Source: a virus
DNA: 23,745 bases
Direction: 5' to 3' (one strand)
Virus record (IMG/VR): IMGVR_UViG_3300027836_000042
Coordinates: 1 to 23,745 of that record
Position numbers and translations under genes: made by a program. A model generated the notes under the pieces. That model had not been told where the DNA came from. It saw nothing but the letters and a program-made list of their open reading frames with translations, and did not search any database. Positions 7,668-18,798 of the stretch are shown here, in pieces. Position 1 is the first letter of the stretch. Every line of letters begins with the position of its first letter.

Positions 7668-8045
7668 ATGGAAAAAAAAGACAAAAATAAAAACCTTCGT
7701 ACACCCTGGAAAAAAGGCGAAACGGGTAATCCAAACGGAAGGCCAAAAAGTATGGAAACAATAATAACCGAATATTTTTTGGACGAGAAAAATATGAAGT
7801 TGACTAAAACGCAGGTGCAGGATATTATTAAAAATATTTTATCAAAGAATAGGAATGATTTAACAGAACTGGCAAACAATGAAGATTTACCTTTTTGGAT
7901 AGCGTTAATCGCAAAGAAGGCAAAAAGGGACTTCGAGAAGGGATCTATACATATACTCGATGTATTATTTGATCGTGTTTACGGTAAACCAAAAGAAGAA
8001 GTCGATACTAATATTAATATTTCGAAATTTGAGTTCGACAATTAA
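7668..8045 (+). CDS. Small terminase subunit-like protein (DUF5681-type N-terminus)
   Basis: A 125-residue protein beginning with a basic stretch and the signature WKKGETGNPNGRPK (about residues 14-27), the (F/W)KKGxSGNPxGRPK motif of DUF5681 proteins that commonly precede phage large terminases. The middle is helical (KLTKTQVQDIIKNIL, ELANNEDLPFWIALIAKKA) and the end contains ILDVLFDRVYGKPKEEV, also typical of the group. It directly precedes and overlaps the large terminase gene, which supports a role in recognising phage DNA for packaging. Not all DUF5681 proteins are proven small terminases. Confidence 0.8.
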   Translation: MEKKDKNKNLRTPWKKGETGNPNGRPKSMETIITEYFLDEKNMKLTKTQVQDIIKNILSKNRNDLTELANNEDLPFWIALIAKKAKRDFEKGSIHILDVLFDRVYGKPKEEVDTNINISKFEFDN

Positions 8046-9249
8046 GGGATATAAACCGCACGAAAAACAAAAATTAATACACGATTCAATAGTAAACGAA
8101 TCGTATAAATATTATATTTTAAATATTGGACGGCAGTTCGGCAAAACAATGCTTGGAATAAATCAAAAATTATTTTGGGCGATAAATGATCCTGGCAGTT
8201 CGATAGCGTGGGTAACACCGATTTATAAACAAGGTAAAAAGGTATTCGACGAACTCGAAAAGGCAACGGCTAACAGCGGATTATTTCACTATAACAGATC
8301 TGATTTAACAGTTTATTGCAGCAATGGATCTAAAATTCAATATTTCTCTGGTGAGCGTCCAGATAATATTCGTGGTAATACTTTCGATTATTTGATCATA
8401 GACGAGTACGCATTTACCAGGCCAGAATTATGGACCGAAATACTATCGGCAACTGTATTGGTAAAAGGTAAAAAAGTTATTTTTATAAGTACACCAAAAG
8501 GTCGAAATCACTTTTATAAATTATCGTTACAGCCGAATTACGATACCAGATATAAATACTTTCATTTTACAAGTTACGATAATCCAATGATCGAAATAAA
8601 TGATCTGGAAGAAAGACGACGTAACCTTCCAGATTATGTATTTAAACAGGAATATTTAGCGGAGTTTATCGATAATGTTTCTGGCCTATTTAAGAACGTT
8701 ACGGAGTGCGTATATATTCCAGATCCAGATAAAAAAGATAATCGTTTAAATCAAAATATTTACGGAGGCCTGGATATTGGACGAGCAGACGATTATACTG
8801 TTTTAACTTTGCTGAATACAAATTACGAAATGATTTTTATAAAACGTTGGCGTCATTTAGATTGGTCTACAATTATAAATGAAGTCGGAGATATTATACA
8901 GGATTACAACGCCAGGGTAAAAGTCGAAGTAAATAATCAAGGGGACGTATTTTTCGAAATGTTACAAAATAGATTATACAGCTACGTCGAACCGTTTGTT
9001 ACAACGACAAAAAGTAAACCAATAATGATCGAGGATCTGGCGGTTTTATTTGAAAACAAAGAAATTAAAATTTTAAACGAAAATTACTTGGTAGACGAAT
9101 TAAATGCGTTTACTTATATTTACAATCAAAAGACGCGACGAGTACAATACGGTGCACCACAGGGAGTGCACGACGATAGTGTAATGAGTTTAGCGTTAGC
9201 CGTACAATCACTTAAAGATCTAAAAAATGATTACTTCGAAATTTATTGA
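8029..9249 (+). CDS. Large terminase subunit
   Basis: ATP-driven packaging motor and headful/cos nuclease. Walker A is GRQFGKTM near residues 37-44 from this start, Walker B is YLIIDEYAF, and the coupling motif region reads KKVIFISTPKG. The RNase-H-like nuclease part has GGLDIGRADDYT, the downstream VEVNNQGD and the final HDDSVMSLALA. I chose the TTG at 8029, which gives LSSTIKGYKPHEKQK and a 17-base overlap with the small terminase gene, about 406 residues. The upstream in-frame ATG at 7960 would add 23 residues (YYLIVFTVNQKK...) that look like an out-of-frame reading of the small terminase end; that start would give 429 residues. Function is secure, start is not. Confidence 0.93.
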   Translation: MSSTIKGYKPHEKQKLIHDSIVNESYKYYILNIGRQFGKTMLGINQKLFWAINDPGSSIAWVTPIYKQGKKVFDELEKATANSGLFHYNRSDLTVYCSNGSKIQYFSGERPDNIRGNTFDYLIIDEYAFTRPELWTEILSATVLVKGKKVIFISTPKGRNHFYKLSLQPNYDTRYKYFHFTSYDNPMIEINDLEERRRNLPDYVFKQEYLAEFIDNVSGLFKNVTECVYIPDPDKKDNRLNQNIYGGLDIGRADDYTVLTLLNTNYEMIFIKRWRHLDWSTIINEVGDIIQDYNARVKVEVNNQGDVFFEMLQNRLYSYVEPFVTTTKSKPIMIEDLAVLFENKEIKILNENYLVDELNAFTYIYNQKTRRVQYGAPQGVHDDSVMSLALAVQSLKDLKNDYFEIY

Positions 9250-9763
9250 AATTAAAGCGCCAGCAAGTTTAAAGGATTTAAGGATCCATAATTTAAAAGC
9301 GTTGACGTATCCGCAGTACAATATTAACAAAATGAAAATCGAGGATATAATCGAATTTTTATCACTTGTTACAAGCGCGACAAAAAATGAATTGCGTAAA
9401 ATAAAACTGGAAGATTTAAAAGATATTTTACTGCATATCGTTTCAATTTTTTCACAATATAAAATTCAGCACCCAGAAAAAAGAATAATAATAGAAGGCA
9501 AAGAATTCGATTTAATAGATCCTAAAAAAGTTGGCGTAGGTTGGCATATAGATATTTCGAACAGCGACTTCGAAAAGGATCCAGGCCGTTTGGCTGCCTT
9601 AATGTATATCGAAAGGGGAAGTAATTACGGAGATCTGGACGATAACGGAAATATGATCTATTCAAACCAGGAACGAGAAAAAATGTTTTTACGCTCGATG
9701 CCGTTAAATACCTATTTGGATTTAGTTAGTTTTTTTTTGCGCAAATCACTCGAATTAATTTAG
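9227..9763 (+). CDS. Tail assembly chaperone-like protein, zero-frame product (G-like)
   Basis: A 178-residue protein that overlaps the end of the terminase gene by 23 bases. It starts MITSKFIEIKAPASLKDLRIHNLKAL, is mostly helical (IEDIIEFLSLVTSATKNEL), and contains a GWHIDISNSDF and RLAALMYIERG segment. It ends LVSFFLRKSLELI. Immediately before its stop is a run of nine T, after which a second frame stays open (see the -1 extension). The two-product layout matches lambda G/GT-type tail assembly chaperones, which hold the tape measure during tail assembly. No sequence motif proves this; the call rests on gene layout and on membership of the tail module. Confidence 0.75.
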   Translation: MITSKFIEIKAPASLKDLRIHNLKALTYPQYNINKMKIEDIIEFLSLVTSATKNELRKIKLEDLKDILLHIVSIFSQYKIQHPEKRIIIEGKEFDLIDPKKVGVGWHIDISNSDFEKDPGRLAALMYIERGSNYGDLDDNGNMIYSNQEREKMFLRSMPLNTYLDLVSFFLRKSLELI

Positions 9764-9984
9764 ATATATTCGGAGAGGACGAGAAAGAAAAACAGCGAAT
9801 TGAAAAAAATAAAAAAGAAAAAAAAGAAAAAAAACAATTTTTTTGGGAAGAAATAATACAAATGCTTTCAGAATTTTATTCGCAATCGTGGGATGAAATT
9901 TTAAAATGGAATTATTATAAATTCAATCATAGACTAAAATTCGTTAATTTTACTAATCAAAAGAAATCTTTAAAAAATAGATAA
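9227..9984 (+). CDS. Predicted -1 frameshift fusion (GT-like) of the tail chaperone
   Basis: The -1 frame is open from just after a TAG at 9727-9729 to the TAA at 9982-9984. It reads FFFAQITRINLDIFGEDEKEKQ, then a Lys/Glu-rich stretch, then FFWEEIIQMLSEFYSQSWDEIL and a basic end QKKSLKNR (broken here into short pieces). Slippage of one base back in the T9 run (9730-9738) joins it to the first 170 or so residues of the upstream product, giving about 252 residues. The extension has no good start codon near its beginning, and the first 150 bases would otherwise be an unexplained gap, both of which favour a fusion. A homopolymer sequencing error or transcriptional slippage would give the same reading. 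Confidence 0.65.
9730..9738 (+). promoter_or_regulatory. T9 slippery run for -1 frameshifting
   Basis: Nine consecutive T, read in the zero frame as agT-TTT-TTT-TTG. Slipping back one base keeps all U-U pairing with the Phe tRNA and opens the -1 frame exactly at this point, since the -1 frame has a stop at 9727-9729. The zero-frame stop lies 23 bases downstream (9761-9763). I see no strong hairpin directly after the run. Confidence 0.65.
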
Positions 9985-9990
9985 AGTAAA

Positions 9991-10542
9991 ATGATCAACG
10001 AAGGCGACATAATTAACAATCTGGACTTCGGTACCGCAGATAATATTCTGTCGAATAAACCTAATAGCGCTTTATCAAATTTACTGTTAGATATAACTAA
10101 CGAATTGATCGCAGAAATGCGCCGAAATCTTAAAGATAGTCGCGCAACTGGTAATTTAGAACAAAGTATATTACCGACTAAAATTGAGGCCAGCAAAATC
10201 GAAGTATCGGCACCGCATTACTGGAAGTATATAAACTACGGAGTAAACGGTACAGTAATAAATCGAGGTGCGCCGACGCACGGGCCTGGTATAAATACAG
10301 GTGTAACTTTTCACGATGCTATTAAAAAGTGGATCTACGATAAAGGGATACCTTTACCAGAGGAAAAAACAATCGATGAACTGGCGTACGCAATCCAAAA
10401 CAGCTTAATTAAAAAAGGCCAAAAGGCCACGCATTTTTTTGATAAAGTAATCACGCCAGAAAAAATAAAAGAAATAAGTAAACCAATTTCAAAGCTATTA
10501 AAAGAAAGTATAATTACATTAATTAAAAAACCTAAAAAATGA
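9991..10542 (+). CDS. HK97 gp10-like head-tail joining / tail completion protein
   Basis: A 183-residue protein with LIAEMRRNLKDSRATGNLEQSI (about residues 38-60, split), then VSAPHYWKYINYGVNGT near 73-89, where xAPHYxxYxxxG is the hallmark I associate with HK97 gp10-like neck or tail completion proteins. It then has RGAPTHGPG and a helical, basic end. Such proteins sit at the head-tail interface or act in tail assembly. Starts 6 bases after the stop of the frameshifted reading frame, and its stop overlaps the next start (ATGA, 10539-10542). Assignment to the family is moderately secure; the exact place in the virion is inferred. Confidence 0.75.
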   Translation: MINEGDIINNLDFGTADNILSNKPNSALSNLLLDITNELIAEMRRNLKDSRATGNLEQSILPTKIEASKIEVSAPHYWKYINYGVNGTVINRGAPTHGPGINTGVTFHDAIKKWIYDKGIPLPEEKTIDELAYAIQNSLIKKGQKATHFFDKVITPEKIKEISKPISKLLKESIITLIKKPKK

Positions 10543-11831
10543 GTATAGGAATTTCACAGACACCGCAATTTTTAACGCCTTCAGATAATCCAATAATTTA
10601 TGGATTCGGCACAGAAAATTACCAGCCTTCGCCGAATTCTGGTTTACAAAAATATAAACTATCTTTTATTGTAAAAGTTTTTGTACAGTATATTGGCGAG
10701 GTAGGAGTCTTCGAAATTTATCCCGAATATTCAAATGGTCAATTTAGTAACAGTTATGGAAAAATAGATATATCGCCTATCATAAGATCTTATTTACAAT
10801 TACCAGATATTGTCCGATCACAGTACAGTACTGTAATATTCGATAGTGGTGTAAACGTAAGGCAGGCAAATATTTTAGTATATGAAAAATACGCAACAAC
10901 AATCGATGGTGAAACGGCCTTGCATGGTTCCGTTACCTCAAGTATTACGACAGTTTTTAAAGGAAGTTTATCGGAAAAAGAATTTCAAAATTTCAATCCG
11001 TACGATTATAATGTTGGGAATATTGATAAAAAATTCCTTACTGATAAACCTAAAATTGATTTTATTCCGCCTTATAATATTTTTGTATATATATGTGATT
11101 TTCTAAAAAACGATTCAATACATTTTTCTTATTTTGATATAGATTATTTAAACCAAATAAATTTTGACAAAATATTGAGAATAACTTATTTTAACGGGAC
11201 TAATAATGTGAACTTTGAAATACAATATCCGGCGGGCGAGCAGGGTGTATATAATAGTATTTACATTAATATAAAAGCGTTAGTTGATTTAGGCGTATTT
11301 ACGCAGGCCGTAGCGGACGGCATCGAATGGTTAGGAATTGGAGTTTTTAATCCAATTACAGATAATTTAGTTACGCCGTTTGTTTATTTAACAATTAAAA
11401 AACCTTGTTTTTATCCTGGTAAATCTTTAAAATTTTTAAATAAGTTCGGCGCGTATGATTACTTTTTATTCCAGCATAATGAACGTAAAAGCGCGTCAAT
11501 TAAAAGCTATGAATACGAAAGAGAAATTGGCGAGTGGAACAGTAATACAAATGATTTTGAAATTGATAAATTAAGGGACGGTAGGCAATCGTATTTAAAA
11601 CAAAAAACTGAAAAATTACAGCTTATTTCGGGTTATTTAAACGAGGACGAACAGAACTGGTTGACGCAATTATATGAGAGTCCTCTTGTGTACTTAAATT
11701 ATAATAATGGAGACGTTCAAAGCGTAATTATTACAAATACAAGTTTCACAATTAAACAGGATCAATACGACGAATTATATAACGAAATCGTCGATATTGA
11801 ATTTACAACTAAAAACAGCATAGAATTATGA
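10539..11831 (+). CDS. Probable tail (distal/tip) structural protein
   Basis: A 430-residue, beta-rich protein with many aromatic and Asn residues, no signal peptide and no membrane segment. It begins MSIGISQTPQFLTPSDNPIIYGF and repeats short beta segments typical of virion proteins. The C-terminal part includes KQKTEKLQLISGYLNEDEQNWLTQLYESP and a final VDIEFTTKNSIEL (given here in short pieces). Its position between the neck-like gene and another large beta-rich protein, upstream of the tape measure, fits a distal tail or baseplate hub component. I do not recognise a named family. It overlaps both neighbours by 4 bases. Confidence 0.7.
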   Translation: MSIGISQTPQFLTPSDNPIIYGFGTENYQPSPNSGLQKYKLSFIVKVFVQYIGEVGVFEIYPEYSNGQFSNSYGKIDISPIIRSYLQLPDIVRSQYSTVIFDSGVNVRQANILVYEKYATTIDGETALHGSVTSSITTVFKGSLSEKEFQNFNPYDYNVGNIDKKFLTDKPKIDFIPPYNIFVYICDFLKNDSIHFSYFDIDYLNQINFDKILRITYFNGTNNVNFEIQYPAGEQGVYNSIYINIKALVDLGVFTQAVADGIEWLGIGVFNPITDNLVTPFVYLTIKKPCFYPGKSLKFLNKFGAYDYFLFQHNERKSASIKSYEYEREIGEWNSNTNDFEIDKLRDGRQSYLKQKTEKLQLISGYLNEDEQNWLTQLYESPLVYLNYNNGDVQSVIITNTSFTIKQDQYDELYNEIVDIEFTTKNSIEL

Positions 11832-14026
11832 TAACTTCGATAGTAGTAAATAATTTTAAATTAGACCTGGCCGAAAATATAAGTGTACCTTTAAATTTTT
11901 CCTTACAGGAGTTTCGAGATCCAGAAAAAAGAAAGCGATCGTTTTCCAAAACTATAAATATTCCAGGCACGAGTAAAAATAAAAAGTTTTTTTTATCGGC
12001 CTTTAATATTAGTTTAAAAGTAACTGATTCAGTAGGATTACAATTTCAACCTAATTTAGCGCCAGAATGTATTGTTAAAAAAGGCGATATTATTATTTTT
12101 CGTGGTTTATTGAAATTAAACCAGGTTAATATTTTAGATAAAAATTATACTTTTGAATGTACAATATATTCAGAGGTTGTAAATATTTTTTCTAATTTAA
12201 AATCGATTAATTTAAACGAATTAGACTGGTCTGAATATGATCACGAATTGACAAGGGAAAACGTTTTAAGCACTTGGGAAACTTCAGTAATTAAAAACGG
12301 CGTAGCAACTTCAAATTTTAACGGTGTCTATCCTTCCAACGGTTACGATCCTATGTCGTTCGGATATCTTTATCCACTTGTTAATTATGGATTCGCACAA
12401 CCGAATAGTACGACTTATAAAGTAAATCAATTAGTACCGCACGTTTATGTAAAAGAATGCCTTATTAAGATTTTCGAATACGCCTATAAGGACACGGATA
12501 TAAAAGTAGATTATACAACTAATTTTTTTAATAATGATAATATTAAAAAAATGATTTATGGTTACGGTGGCGGAGATCAATTAAAACTTTCAGCTGCCGC
12601 GATCCTGGCTTCAAAAATTGAATTTTTAAATGCGACTTATTCAAACATGTTCGATTTACCGCCTGGTACTGGTAGTTTATGGTATTTAAACTTTAGTCAA
12701 GATTTTTTATATCTTTTGGACGAATACGGTACTATACCGTCAATACAACAAAATCAAAACACAATAGAATTCGACAACGGCGGTTATGTAAAAATAAATG
12801 TAAAAGGGCTTTATACTTTTAATATTAAAATAGTAGTTACGTATTATGGTGGAAATGTAAGTAATCCAGTGAACAACTTAACTACATTAAAAGTATATAA
12901 AAATAATACTTATTCTGTTTTTAGTAAAACAAATACTACTATAACAAATTCAACATATACTTTAAATTACACGTTTGATTTAGACTGTAATCCAGGCGAA
13001 ACTTATTCATTTGGATATACCGCATTTGTTACGAGTTCAACGCCACAAATATTAATGAGTATTACTGAATGCGATTTTACAATGTCGGCAGAAAAAAGCC
13101 AGGAATTAACCGACGGTTCTGTTGTTTCTTTAAATGCAGCTATACCAATAATAAAATGTGCTGATTTTCTTAAGGGAATTTTAAACATGTTTTATGCGAC
13201 AATTTCGGATCCGATTTATGATCCAGTTACAAGTAACAGAATTATTTATATAAATTCGTTTTCAGACTTTTATAAGGATCAAACAGAATACGACGTATGG
13301 ACAAAAAAAATTGACAAAAAAAGGGAAATTAATATCGAAAGTAATTCGTTAATCGAAGGTAAAAATTATGTTTTTCAATTTAACAGCGAGAAGGATTATT
13401 TTAATAATGAATATACTCGTATAACTGGCGATAATTACGGCGAACTGGATATATTATTCGACACGTTTCAAAGTGAAGAAAGAATTTTTAAAATGCCGTT
13501 TTCAACATATCCGTCGGTAAAAATTTCTGGATCTAATTTACGAATTCCGCATATATTAGAAAATAACGGATCAACAATTAAATCTTATAAAGGTGGCGGT
13601 CATTTAAGTTTTTACAACGGTTTAAGGCCTGGAAATTGCGCAATACAAAGGGCAGGAAACACGATACAAACAGCGAGTACAAACTATCCTATGATCCATC
13701 ATTTTAGGTTACAAAATTCACAGGATTACATACCTTTATTTGATTTACATTTTCAATCCAGGCAGTATTCGTTCGATGAAATTTTGGTGTTTCCTTCATT
13801 AAATACTTACTCAAAATATTTTGTTCGATTTATTAATGAAATGACTTCGCCAGATGCAAAACTATTAAGGGCGTATTTTAAACTAAACGATCTGGATATT
13901 TCAAACATGGATTTTAGTAAATTAAAAATGATTGACGGAAATTTATTCAGATTGTACACAATAAAGGATTACGATAATATAAATTTAGGCACAACACAAT
14001 GCGAACTTATTAAATTTTTAGGGTAA
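11828..14026 (+). CDS. Probable tail tip / tail-associated structural protein
   Basis: A 732-residue protein. The N-terminal part (MITSIVVNNFKLDLAENISVPL, then FRDPEKRKRSFSKTINIPGTSKNKKFF at about 29-55) is a pattern I know from Bacteroidota phage tail proteins. It continues with ECIVKKGDIIIFRGLLKLNQV and a long beta-rich, Asn/Thr-rich middle. The last part is FRLYTIKDYDNINLGTTQCELIKFLG. Size, position (before the tape measure in the tail block) and beta-rich make-up suit a gp27-like hub or tail-tip protein, but no catalytic motif for a wall hydrolase is seen. Its stop shares one base with the next start (taATG). Confidence 0.72.
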   Translation: MITSIVVNNFKLDLAENISVPLNFSLQEFRDPEKRKRSFSKTINIPGTSKNKKFFLSAFNISLKVTDSVGLQFQPNLAPECIVKKGDIIIFRGLLKLNQVNILDKNYTFECTIYSEVVNIFSNLKSINLNELDWSEYDHELTRENVLSTWETSVIKNGVATSNFNGVYPSNGYDPMSFGYLYPLVNYGFAQPNSTTYKVNQLVPHVYVKECLIKIFEYAYKDTDIKVDYTTNFFNNDNIKKMIYGYGGGDQLKLSAAAILASKIEFLNATYSNMFDLPPGTGSLWYLNFSQDFLYLLDEYGTIPSIQQNQNTIEFDNGGYVKINVKGLYTFNIKIVVTYYGGNVSNPVNNLTTLKVYKNNTYSVFSKTNTTITNSTYTLNYTFDLDCNPGETYSFGYTAFVTSSTPQILMSITECDFTMSAEKSQELTDGSVVSLNAAIPIIKCADFLKGILNMFYATISDPIYDPVTSNRIIYINSFSDFYKDQTEYDVWTKKIDKKREINIESNSLIEGKNYVFQFNSEKDYFNNEYTRITGDNYGELDILFDTFQSEERIFKMPFSTYPSVKISGSNLRIPHILENNGSTIKSYKGGGHLSFYNGLRPGNCAIQRAGNTIQTASTNYPMIHHFRLQNSQDYIPLFDLHFQSRQYSFDEILVFPSLNTYSKYFVRFINEMTSPDAKLLRAYFKLNDLDISNMDFSKLKMIDGNLFRLYTIKDYDNINLGTTQCELIKFLG

Positions 14027-16191
14027 TGGAAGAAATAATTTTTAAAGTAGGCGTAGAAACAGGGGACGCAAAAAGTAAAATTGACGGGGTAACAGATGCC
14101 GTTAAAAAAACAGGGAAGGAAACCGAAAAGGCTGGCGGATCCTTTACTAATTTACGAAAAGAATTAAAAAATTTAACGTTGCAGTTACAAACGTTAGATC
14201 CTGCAAGCAAAGAATTCGAAAAGGTCGCAAAAAGGGCTGGGCATATAAAAGAACAAATGCGTGGGGTTGCGGATGCAATAAACGACGCAGATCCAGAAAA
14301 ATTCGGTGGTAAATTTCAGCGAACAGCGGAAGGAATTGCAGGCGCGTTTTCAGCGGTAACAGGCGCGCAAGCTATTTTCGGCGGGAATAGTGAGCAAATC
14401 GAAAAGCAAATGTTAAAAGTACAGGGCGCAATCGCTTTAACGCAGGGTATTAGCGCAATGAAGGAATTAAAAAACGATAGTTTAGACTTCGCAACGGCAA
14501 TTAAAAAATCTGTCGTAGGCGCGTTCGTATCACTTACTTCCGCAGAATTGATTAACGCACAGGCTACGGGCACTATGACGATGCTACAAAAAGCCTATAC
14601 GATAGCGGTTGGAACTTCTACTGGTGTAATGAAGGCGTTTAAACTTGCATTAATTTCAACTGGTATCGGTGCGCTGGTTGTTTTATTAGGATTCTTAATC
14701 GAAAAAATGATGTCTTACATGGGTTCGGCAGAGGACGGGATAAAAGCACAAGATCGTTTTACTGCGTCTATGGAGCGGTTTACCAGATCACAGGAGCGAA
14801 CACGTAAAAGCATGGAAGACGGAATAAAATATCAAATAGATTACGCAAAAGCAATCGGGGCCTCGGATGAAAAAATATACGAATTAGAATTAAAAGGAAT
14901 TGATAAACGAAACGCGTTGAGAGAGAAGGATATCATAAATAATAATAATTTATTATATAAAATTCGTACGGATAAAATGGATGCCTACGATAACGAAAAC
15001 TGGGATCTCGTTAAGTCTATGAATGATCAAATTAAAACTACCCGGAAGGCAAACCAGGATTTATACGACGAGGAATTTTCACTAAAAAGAGAAAAAAGTT
15101 TATTAACGGCAAACTATAATAAAAAAACAATCGACGATAATAAAAAAAACAGCACAGAGCAAGCCACAAAAGACAAAGAGGCAAAAGACAAAGAGAAGGA
15201 AGTCGAGAAAAAACATTTAGAAGATAAACAAGCGCTAAAAAGAAAGTACGAAGATTTAATGGCGTCCAGTATTACCGACCAGGCGACCAGAGAGCAGGTC
15301 GAATTAGCATTAAAACAGCAAAGGGAAATAACAGATTTAAAAGCACAATACGAAACAAAAAAACTTTTAAAAAATGAGTTCGATCGTACTATGCTTGCGA
15401 TGGAAGTAGCGCACGATGTTGAAAAGGAAAACCTAAAAAAACAACAGGATAAGGACAAGGATGAAAAGGAACAGGCTATAATCGATAAAGAAAATTTAAA
15501 CGCAAAATCAAAAATCGAGGCGGAAATAATTGCACTCGAAAATGAGTTTAAAGCAAAGCAGGAAAAAAAGGTCGAACTTGAAAATTTAGACTTCGCACAG
15601 CAATTACAAAACAAAGAATTAACAAACGGCGAAATACAAAAAATTACAGCACAGCACGAGGCGAACCTTATAGCGATTGGAACGGAAAGCAAAGATCGAC
15701 AAATTGAAATTGATAACGCAATCGCAGAGGCTAAATTTAACCTGGCAAATAATATCGGTTCGGCAATCGGTGCGCTTGGTGGTTTATTTGCGCAGGGATC
15801 AAAACAGGCAAAAGCATTTGCGTTAATACAAATAGGAATCGATACGGCAACTGGATTCATGAGTGCGTTAACTATTGCGCAACAATCGGCAAAAGCAACG
15901 GGGCCAGCAGCAGCGTTCGCAATGCCTATATTTTACGCGTCGCAGGTTGGTGCGGTATTGCAGGCGTTAGGTAAAGCGAAATCTATTTTAGGATCCAGTA
16001 CAAGCGTACAAGCGCCAACAATAAACACCGCTGGCGGAATTGGATCTGGAAGCGGAAGTTCGGGCGTAGGCGTAAATCAACAGGATACGGAAGTAAGGGC
16101 GCAATCCACTTATAAGGTCGTAGTAGTGGATAGTGATATAACAAAAATGCAAGAAAAAACAAAAAAAGTTGAATTAATATCCAGCATTTAA
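14026..16191 (+). CDS. Tape measure protein
   Basis: A 721-residue protein that sets tail length and is threaded through the tail tube. The start is charged (FKVGVETGDAKSKIDG, VTDAVKKTGKETEKAG) and helical, followed by an Ala/Gly-rich part with a membrane-like helix around residues 206-226 (ALISTGIGALVVLLGFLI). A long Lys/Glu/Gln coiled coil covers about 365-560. A second Ala/Gly-rich hydrophobic stretch runs from about 570 to 660 (NNIGSAIGALGGLFAQGS, AAAFAMPIFYASQVGAVLQ), with a Gly/Ser-rich end. This order is typical of Bacteroidota phage tape measures. At roughly 0.15 nm per residue the tail would be about 110 nm long; that is an estimate, not a measurement. Downstream lies a 34-base spacer before the head genes. 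Confidence 0.92.
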   Translation: MEEIIFKVGVETGDAKSKIDGVTDAVKKTGKETEKAGGSFTNLRKELKNLTLQLQTLDPASKEFEKVAKRAGHIKEQMRGVADAINDADPEKFGGKFQRTAEGIAGAFSAVTGAQAIFGGNSEQIEKQMLKVQGAIALTQGISAMKELKNDSLDFATAIKKSVVGAFVSLTSAELINAQATGTMTMLQKAYTIAVGTSTGVMKAFKLALISTGIGALVVLLGFLIEKMMSYMGSAEDGIKAQDRFTASMERFTRSQERTRKSMEDGIKYQIDYAKAIGASDEKIYELELKGIDKRNALREKDIINNNNLLYKIRTDKMDAYDNENWDLVKSMNDQIKTTRKANQDLYDEEFSLKREKSLLTANYNKKTIDDNKKNSTEQATKDKEAKDKEKEVEKKHLEDKQALKRKYEDLMASSITDQATREQVELALKQQREITDLKAQYETKKLLKNEFDRTMLAMEVAHDVEKENLKKQQDKDKDEKEQAIIDKENLNAKSKIEAEIIALENEFKAKQEKKVELENLDFAQQLQNKELTNGEIQKITAQHEANLIAIGTESKDRQIEIDNAIAEAKFNLANNIGSAIGALGGLFAQGSKQAKAFALIQIGIDTATGFMSALTIAQQSAKATGPAAAFAMPIFYASQVGAVLQALGKAKSILGSSTSVQAPTINTAGGIGSGSGSSGVGVNQQDTEVRAQSTYKVVVVDSDITKMQEKTKKVELISSI

Positions 16192-18273: not shown

Positions 18274-18798
18274 ATGTGTGAATTAACAGCAGGATTCGGC
18301 GCTTTAAAATGTGATAGTGCAGCAGGTATCGACGAATGGTATATCGGTTCGATGCGTGATTCAAGTACAGGTACGGCAAATTTTACGTATACTCGTACGG
18401 CTGGATCACTTACGGCAATGGCGAACGTAGGTACAAAATTATTTTATAAAGTTTTGGTTGACGTTGAAATGTCGGACTTTACGGTAACGAGCATTGGTAC
18501 GAGAGAAAATGCAAGTGCAGGTTTTGATATTACAGGAAATATTAAACTGGCAGGAAACACGGCGGAAATGATTGACCAGTTCGAAAGTTTATCAAAAGAT
18601 CGACTTTGTGTTATTGGAAAATTAAACGACGGTACGTATGAAGTTTTGGGACTTGACAAAGGTGTAAAATTTAATTTTGCGAGAACGTCTGGAACTAAAT
18701 TCGAAGATATGAACGGGGTTACTTTAACTTTTACAGGTCGTGAGAAAAAAAATGCGCCAAAAGTATCTGGTACGATTGTAGATGCTTTATTAGTATAA
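18274..18798 (+). CDS. Probable major tail tube protein
   Basis: A 174-residue protein with a beta-rich, Thr/Gly-rich sequence: MCELTAGFGALKCDSAAGIDEW, TGTANFTYTRTAGSLTAM, YKVLVDVEMSDFTV, LSKDRLCVIGKLNDGTYEVLG and a final GVTLTFTGREKKNAPKV (short pieces). The end, a beta hairpin with TFTGREKxxAP, is what I would expect in a tail tube protein of Bacteroidota phages. It is set off by terminators on both sides, consistent with separate high-level expression. Alternative: a head decoration protein, since it follows the major capsid gene. Confidence 0.68.
   Translation: MCELTAGFGALKCDSAAGIDEWYIGSMRDSSTGTANFTYTRTAGSLTAMANVGTKLFYKVLVDVEMSDFTVTSIGTRENASAGFDITGNIKLAGNTAEMIDQFESLSKDRLCVIGKLNDGTYEVLGLDKGVKFNFARTSGTKFEDMNGVTLTFTGREKKNAPKVSGTIVDALLV

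Follow-up and report, generated by a model that had tools for sequence, protein, structure and literature searches.

A T9/T10 run as the probable transcriptional slippage site of a putative tail-chaperone cassette in presumed Bacteroidota phages

Background

The window analysed here is the whole 23,745-nucleotide stretch of virus record IMGVR_UViG_3300027836_000042. Directly after its large terminase gene lies a short reading frame, here called G, which runs into nine consecutive thymines (T9), where a second frame, the T part, opens at -1. The locus therefore raises two questions: whether one reading start is meant to give both a short product and an extended product (GT), and, if so, whether the change of frame is made by the ribosome or by RNA polymerase. 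Control of phage tail assembly through the G/GT ratio is the textbook case of ribosomal frameshifting.

Results

Geometry of the cassette

The features of the cassette and its neighbours are collected in Table 1. At the run, the zero-frame codons are AGT TTT TTT TTG (9728-9739), and this frame stops at TAG 9761-9763. In the -1 frame, TAG at 9727-9729 is followed by an open stretch of 84 codons, from 9730 to TAA 9982-9984. These limits had been given to the base in the first-pass annotation, for the 178-residue frame and for the -1 frame alike, as had the observation that the latter fills the gap before the next gene, which begins at 9991. The extension can be reached through insertion of one base in the RNA or through a -1 ribosomal shift, and the joined product would have 252 aa. 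The window is AT-rich and about 1.8 runs of nine or more T are expected in it under a Markov model; a lone T9 is thus unremarkable, and the case depends on conservation in relatives.

Table 1. Positions of the cassette and of neighbouring genes in the window
Feature	Position	Strand	Evidence
Large terminase subunit, directly 5' of G	7960..9249	+	PHROG_2 1.1e-45; Terminase_6N 1.1e-17
Zero-frame ORF, short tail-assembly-chaperone-like product (G)	9227..9763	+	178 aa; homologues in >320 loci
Putative T9 slippage run with zero-frame T_TTT_TTT	9730..9738	+	T9 or T10 in 74/74 clusters
Overlap, G zero-frame tail and extension start on the same DNA	9739..9763	+	
-1 frame extension (T part)	9739..9984	+	Purifying selection; near-start ATG absent in nearly all relatives
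Next gene, neck / tail-completion-like protein	9991..10542	+	phrog_5, E 0.0011, weak
Tape-measure protein, presumed chaperone client	14026..16191	+	phrog_1538, 9e-6

The 3' end of the terminase gene overlaps the start of G by 23 nt. On its other side, the cassette is upstream of the tape-measure gene, as first annotated; the distance, given there as four genes, is more clearly expressed as three intervening genes. The position close behind the terminase, called unusual in the first-pass annotation, is regular in this phage family, including the isolate P12024L. Part of group g2 has one or more small genes between terminase and cassette. In L091-L107 and L189, the cassette adjoins large terminases unrelated to those of the other loci, a different family being present in the T10 clade and likewise in P12024L; an exchange of terminase and tail block as modules is suggested.

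Relatives and constancy of the run

A first search returned one near relative, on two contigs and with 84% amino acid identity; the run, 38 bases around it and the extension were all kept. The search was then widened with the terminase and the neck gene, with terminases from two other groups and with one distant G-part homologue. Both parts were detected with profile HMMs that did not require the T run, and 321 loci with both parts were obtained. The longest T run at the transition was T9 in 298 loci and T10 in 22, while the site was lost in one, L056, through an internal deletion; this was the sole exception. Every one of the 320 intact loci had its extension in the -1 frame. An alignment of related phages had been proposed when the locus was first annotated, and it bore out conservation of the T run and of the -1 frame (320 of 321 loci).

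After clustering of 530 bases around the site at 80% nucleotide identity, 74 intact clusters remained, which are not fully independent events; the run was T9 in 70 of these and T10 in four. Runs of 7, 8 or 11 T were absent from the intact relatives and their 74 clusters. The groups extend down to approximately 15% protein identity with the protein of the window and are still linked by profile, a window-like sequence scoring 1.6e-23 against the g3 model and 6e-4 against the g2 model. Three single copies stood apart on inspection: L124 has a stop-free frame through both parts despite T9, L019 is a chimera with a rearranged G part, and L056 is the deletion described above. They were treated as broken copies.

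The relatives include two cultured Nonlabens phages (Inhavirus), P12024L (gp40-gp41) and P12024S (gp38-gp39). Like the window, they have homologous G and T parts joined at exactly T9, right after the terminase; unlike it, they are annotated with two hypothetical proteins, and the neighbouring terminase belongs to another family. Pointers to the host included DUF3127, DUF6712 and the Nonlabens relatives, from which the hosts are presumed to be Bacteroidota. No prophage relatives were found when a genome collection was scanned with the terminase alignment.

Ribosomal or transcriptional slippage

Classical programmed -1 ribosomal frameshifting on T_TTT_TTT would give the same GT protein, and this heptamer lies in the zero frame of every intact site. 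Known tail-chaperone cassettes also use -1 frameshifting (PMC5009743, PMC3711429). However, T9 always holds an in-frame T_TTT_TTT, and so its presence cannot separate the two mechanisms. What was kept is the entire run, and the heptamer occupies varying places within it. The run begins at codon position 3 in g1 and g3, at position 2 in most of g2 and at position 1 in L238 and its relatives, with a length of 9 or 10 throughout. L016 and L018 are sisters (terminase clade support 97) that differ in register, one T having been lost at the 5' end and one gained at the 3' end, the length being exactly nine in each. On the terminase tree at least four changes of register are required, a count made unsure by the tree's mixing of terminase families.

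Codon usage was informative in g3, where Phe is encoded more often by TTC than by TTT and conserved Phe columns outside the run show both codons. Within the run, all three Phe codons were TTT in 70 of 70 distinct sequences, including a wobble base outside the heptamer; protein constraint may contribute at that base, since the zero frame reads it as a second codon position. Elsewhere in these phages long runs were avoided. In 372 kb of other coding sequence there was no T run of nine or more, against 5.5 expected (P = 0.004), and there were six A runs of this length against 27.8 (P = 7e-7), with expectations taken from synonymous-codon shuffling. Depletion set in at a length of 8-9. In the literature, avoidance of slippage-prone runs appears in many bacterial genomes at nine A or nine T (PMC1088944), and programmed slippage makes use of Tn with n>8 (PMC3711429). 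In A/T runs, most slippage events insert a single base, and their frequency climbs exponentially as the run lengthens (PMC5574713).

The usual stimulators of ribosomal frameshifting were also sought. RNA structure was not found on either side of the run in 31 representatives (mean z -0.2 downstream and 0.1 upstream, for pseudoknot-free folds), and Shine-Dalgarno (SD)-like motifs upstream were not enriched (6 of 74, against 22 of 222 controls). Not every -1 ribosomal frameshift site needs a structure or an SD-like stimulator. For the window, the first-pass annotation had proposed a ribosomal back-slip on T-TTT-TTT; its -1 cassette of G/GT layout was upheld but its mechanism is the poorer fit, since the uninterrupted T9 or T10 in any codon register, together with the absence of the usual ribosomal stimulators, is better fitted by slippage of RNA polymerase. 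Given the constant run length, never 7 or 8 T, and the avoidance of long A/T runs elsewhere in the genomes, we regard a ribosomal shift as an unlikely source of GT, while it is probable on these sequence patterns that a G/GT-like pair arises chiefly through programmed transcriptional slippage that inserts one U. The two kinds of slippage could act together.

Coding of the extension and the remaining alternatives

Substitutions were counted by codon position of the -1 frame past the overlap, using 42 independent pairs from three groups. The counts at positions 1, 2 and 3 were 17/7/67, 9/6/25 and 32/10/85, and the extension is under purifying selection. In the overlap the codon-position pattern was flatter, which is what use of both frames would produce. 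At the run, one substitution was counted in 168 codons, compared with 21-25% of third positions upstream; part of this conservation of T9 could reflect a constraint on the amino acids F-F-(F/L) in two frames. In loci that do not run into a contig end, insertion of one U gives an open stretch of 78-96 codons. Deletion of one T leads to a stop within 3-21 codons, and over one-base deletions and two-base insertions together the stop always comes within 3-22 codons. The zero-frame tail of G past the shift heptamer is 8 residues in the window and up to about 70 in relatives; this tail is itself constrained, and the overlap thus codes in two frames.

The annotation of the Nonlabens phage homologues as separate genes would have the downstream part translated from a start of its own. 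This is very improbable, because an ATG within 15 codons of the run occurs in only one of 74 clusters and 30 of the 74 have no ATG anywhere in the extension; moreover, the -1 frame begins at the run, and the first residues of the extension align and are conserved across groups. Third-position bias, the scarcity of ATGs and the early stops in alternative shifts indicate, as far as sequence can, that G and GT are two intended products. T9 runs are mutable, and a phase-variation tract, in which mutation of the DNA run switches GT on and off, would be a further explanation. It is scarcely credible, considering that no T7, T8 or T11 occurs, and that the T10 clades keep the -1 relation of the frames, and hence T10 is not a switched state. 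Finally, homopolymers are error-prone, and a true run of 8 or 10 T would leave one continuous frame, a possibility raised at first annotation; but sequencing or assembly error is excluded by the number of independent assemblies, the same T9 recurring on many independent contigs and metagenomes and in isolates P12024L and P12024S, with the zero frame past the run also constrained.

Identity of the protein

The G part was modelled by AlphaFold2 with a pLDDT of 86.7 (residues 1-171), its last helix running into the slippage site. The extension was modelled as a helix, a low-confidence linker and then a helical segment. Searches of the PDB by sequence and by fold gave no match, while in a viral structure library the G part matched uncharacterised homologues, including the P12024S protein; a BFVD entry named chaperone was matched at E 0.61. 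Pfam, PHROGs and NCBIfam offered no usable name for the window's own proteins. Among 40 members, one matched Phage_TAC_7 of Pfam (E 0.002, weak given 40 trials), and one member matched phrog_1932, a PHROG named tail assembly chaperone, weakly (E 0.033). A G/GT chaperone function is considered likely from the architecture: two products by -1 recoding, their sizes, and a place among the morphogenesis genes ahead of the tape measure.

A further candidate was gp10 of Flavobacterium phage 6H (L191, 10047-10927, minus strand), which showed a weak fold match to the G part (E 2.8e-3, TM 0.34). Behind it lies an unannotated gap of 305 bases holding an out-of-frame ORF of some 100 aa; with T6 only and no simple way of joining the frames, it was left out of the comparison. 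Elsewhere in the window, the stretch from the neck-like gene to the tape measure (10539-14026) encodes two proteins, of 430 and 732 aa, that have no significant family match. An uncharacterised 174-aa protein (18274-18798) follows a major-capsid-like gene; its gene position suggests a tail-tube protein, with which the T part would presumably interact.

Discussion

Comparison with lambda gpG/gpGT places the cassette in a familiar layout. Both systems have a short product and a C-terminally longer one from the -1 frame, both precede the tape-measure gene within the morphogenesis block, and in both the extension is a low-confidence linker followed by helices. Unlike lambda, the family of the window has as its shift site an uninterrupted T9 or T10, in any register and without stimulators, and the gene in the window adjoins the large terminase, three genes before the tape measure. 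Nor does the family have a clear sequence or fold match to lambda or other known chaperones. For the probable mechanism, the closest parallel is with dnaX of Thermus thermophilus (A9), type III secretion genes of Shigella and transposases of IS elements, in which A/T homopolymers of about nine give two products per gene through slippage of RNA polymerase. Those genes differ from the present one in that the run here is of T rather than A and adds a new C-terminal domain of about 80 residues.

What we infer under programmed transcriptional slippage is that the slip takes place during transcription, what sets the ratio of products, and the role as chaperone; these would combine as follows. One reading start would yield two proteins, as with lambda G and GT. 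Most transcripts would carry nine U's and be translated to G, of 178 aa. At T9, the nascent RNA-DNA hybrid can be entirely rU:dA, and the host RNA polymerase would sometimes slip back and add one U; such messages would be translated, with no shift by the ribosome, to the 252-aa GT with its helical T part. The ratio of products would be set by the length of the run, a shorter run slipping too little and a longer one too much. By analogy with lambda, G would coat the tape-measure protein, while GT would recruit the tail-tube protein through its T part.

Within the open-licence literature, a tail chaperone recoded by transcriptional slippage was not found, and the reviews and predictors there call such recoding ribosomal. 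According to one report, the ribosomes of Bacteroidia do not recognise SD sequences (PMC9976891). We consider it likely that a major lineage of Bacteroidota phages replaced the ribosomal frameshift of the tail chaperone, or evolved apart from it, and uses RNA-polymerase slippage at a length-tuned T9 or T10, perhaps because host ribosomes skip the stimulating SD contacts.

If this is true, the same need is met by two different machines, as with dnaX, and these phages provide hundreds of natural sites at which the run length, 9 or 10, would report the tolerance of bacterial polymerase. It is also suggested that frameshift finders seeking only heptamers and structure can misread such a signal. 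The run, present in every intact two-part homologue found, would then be a marker for unannotated tail chaperones in phages of Bacteroidota.
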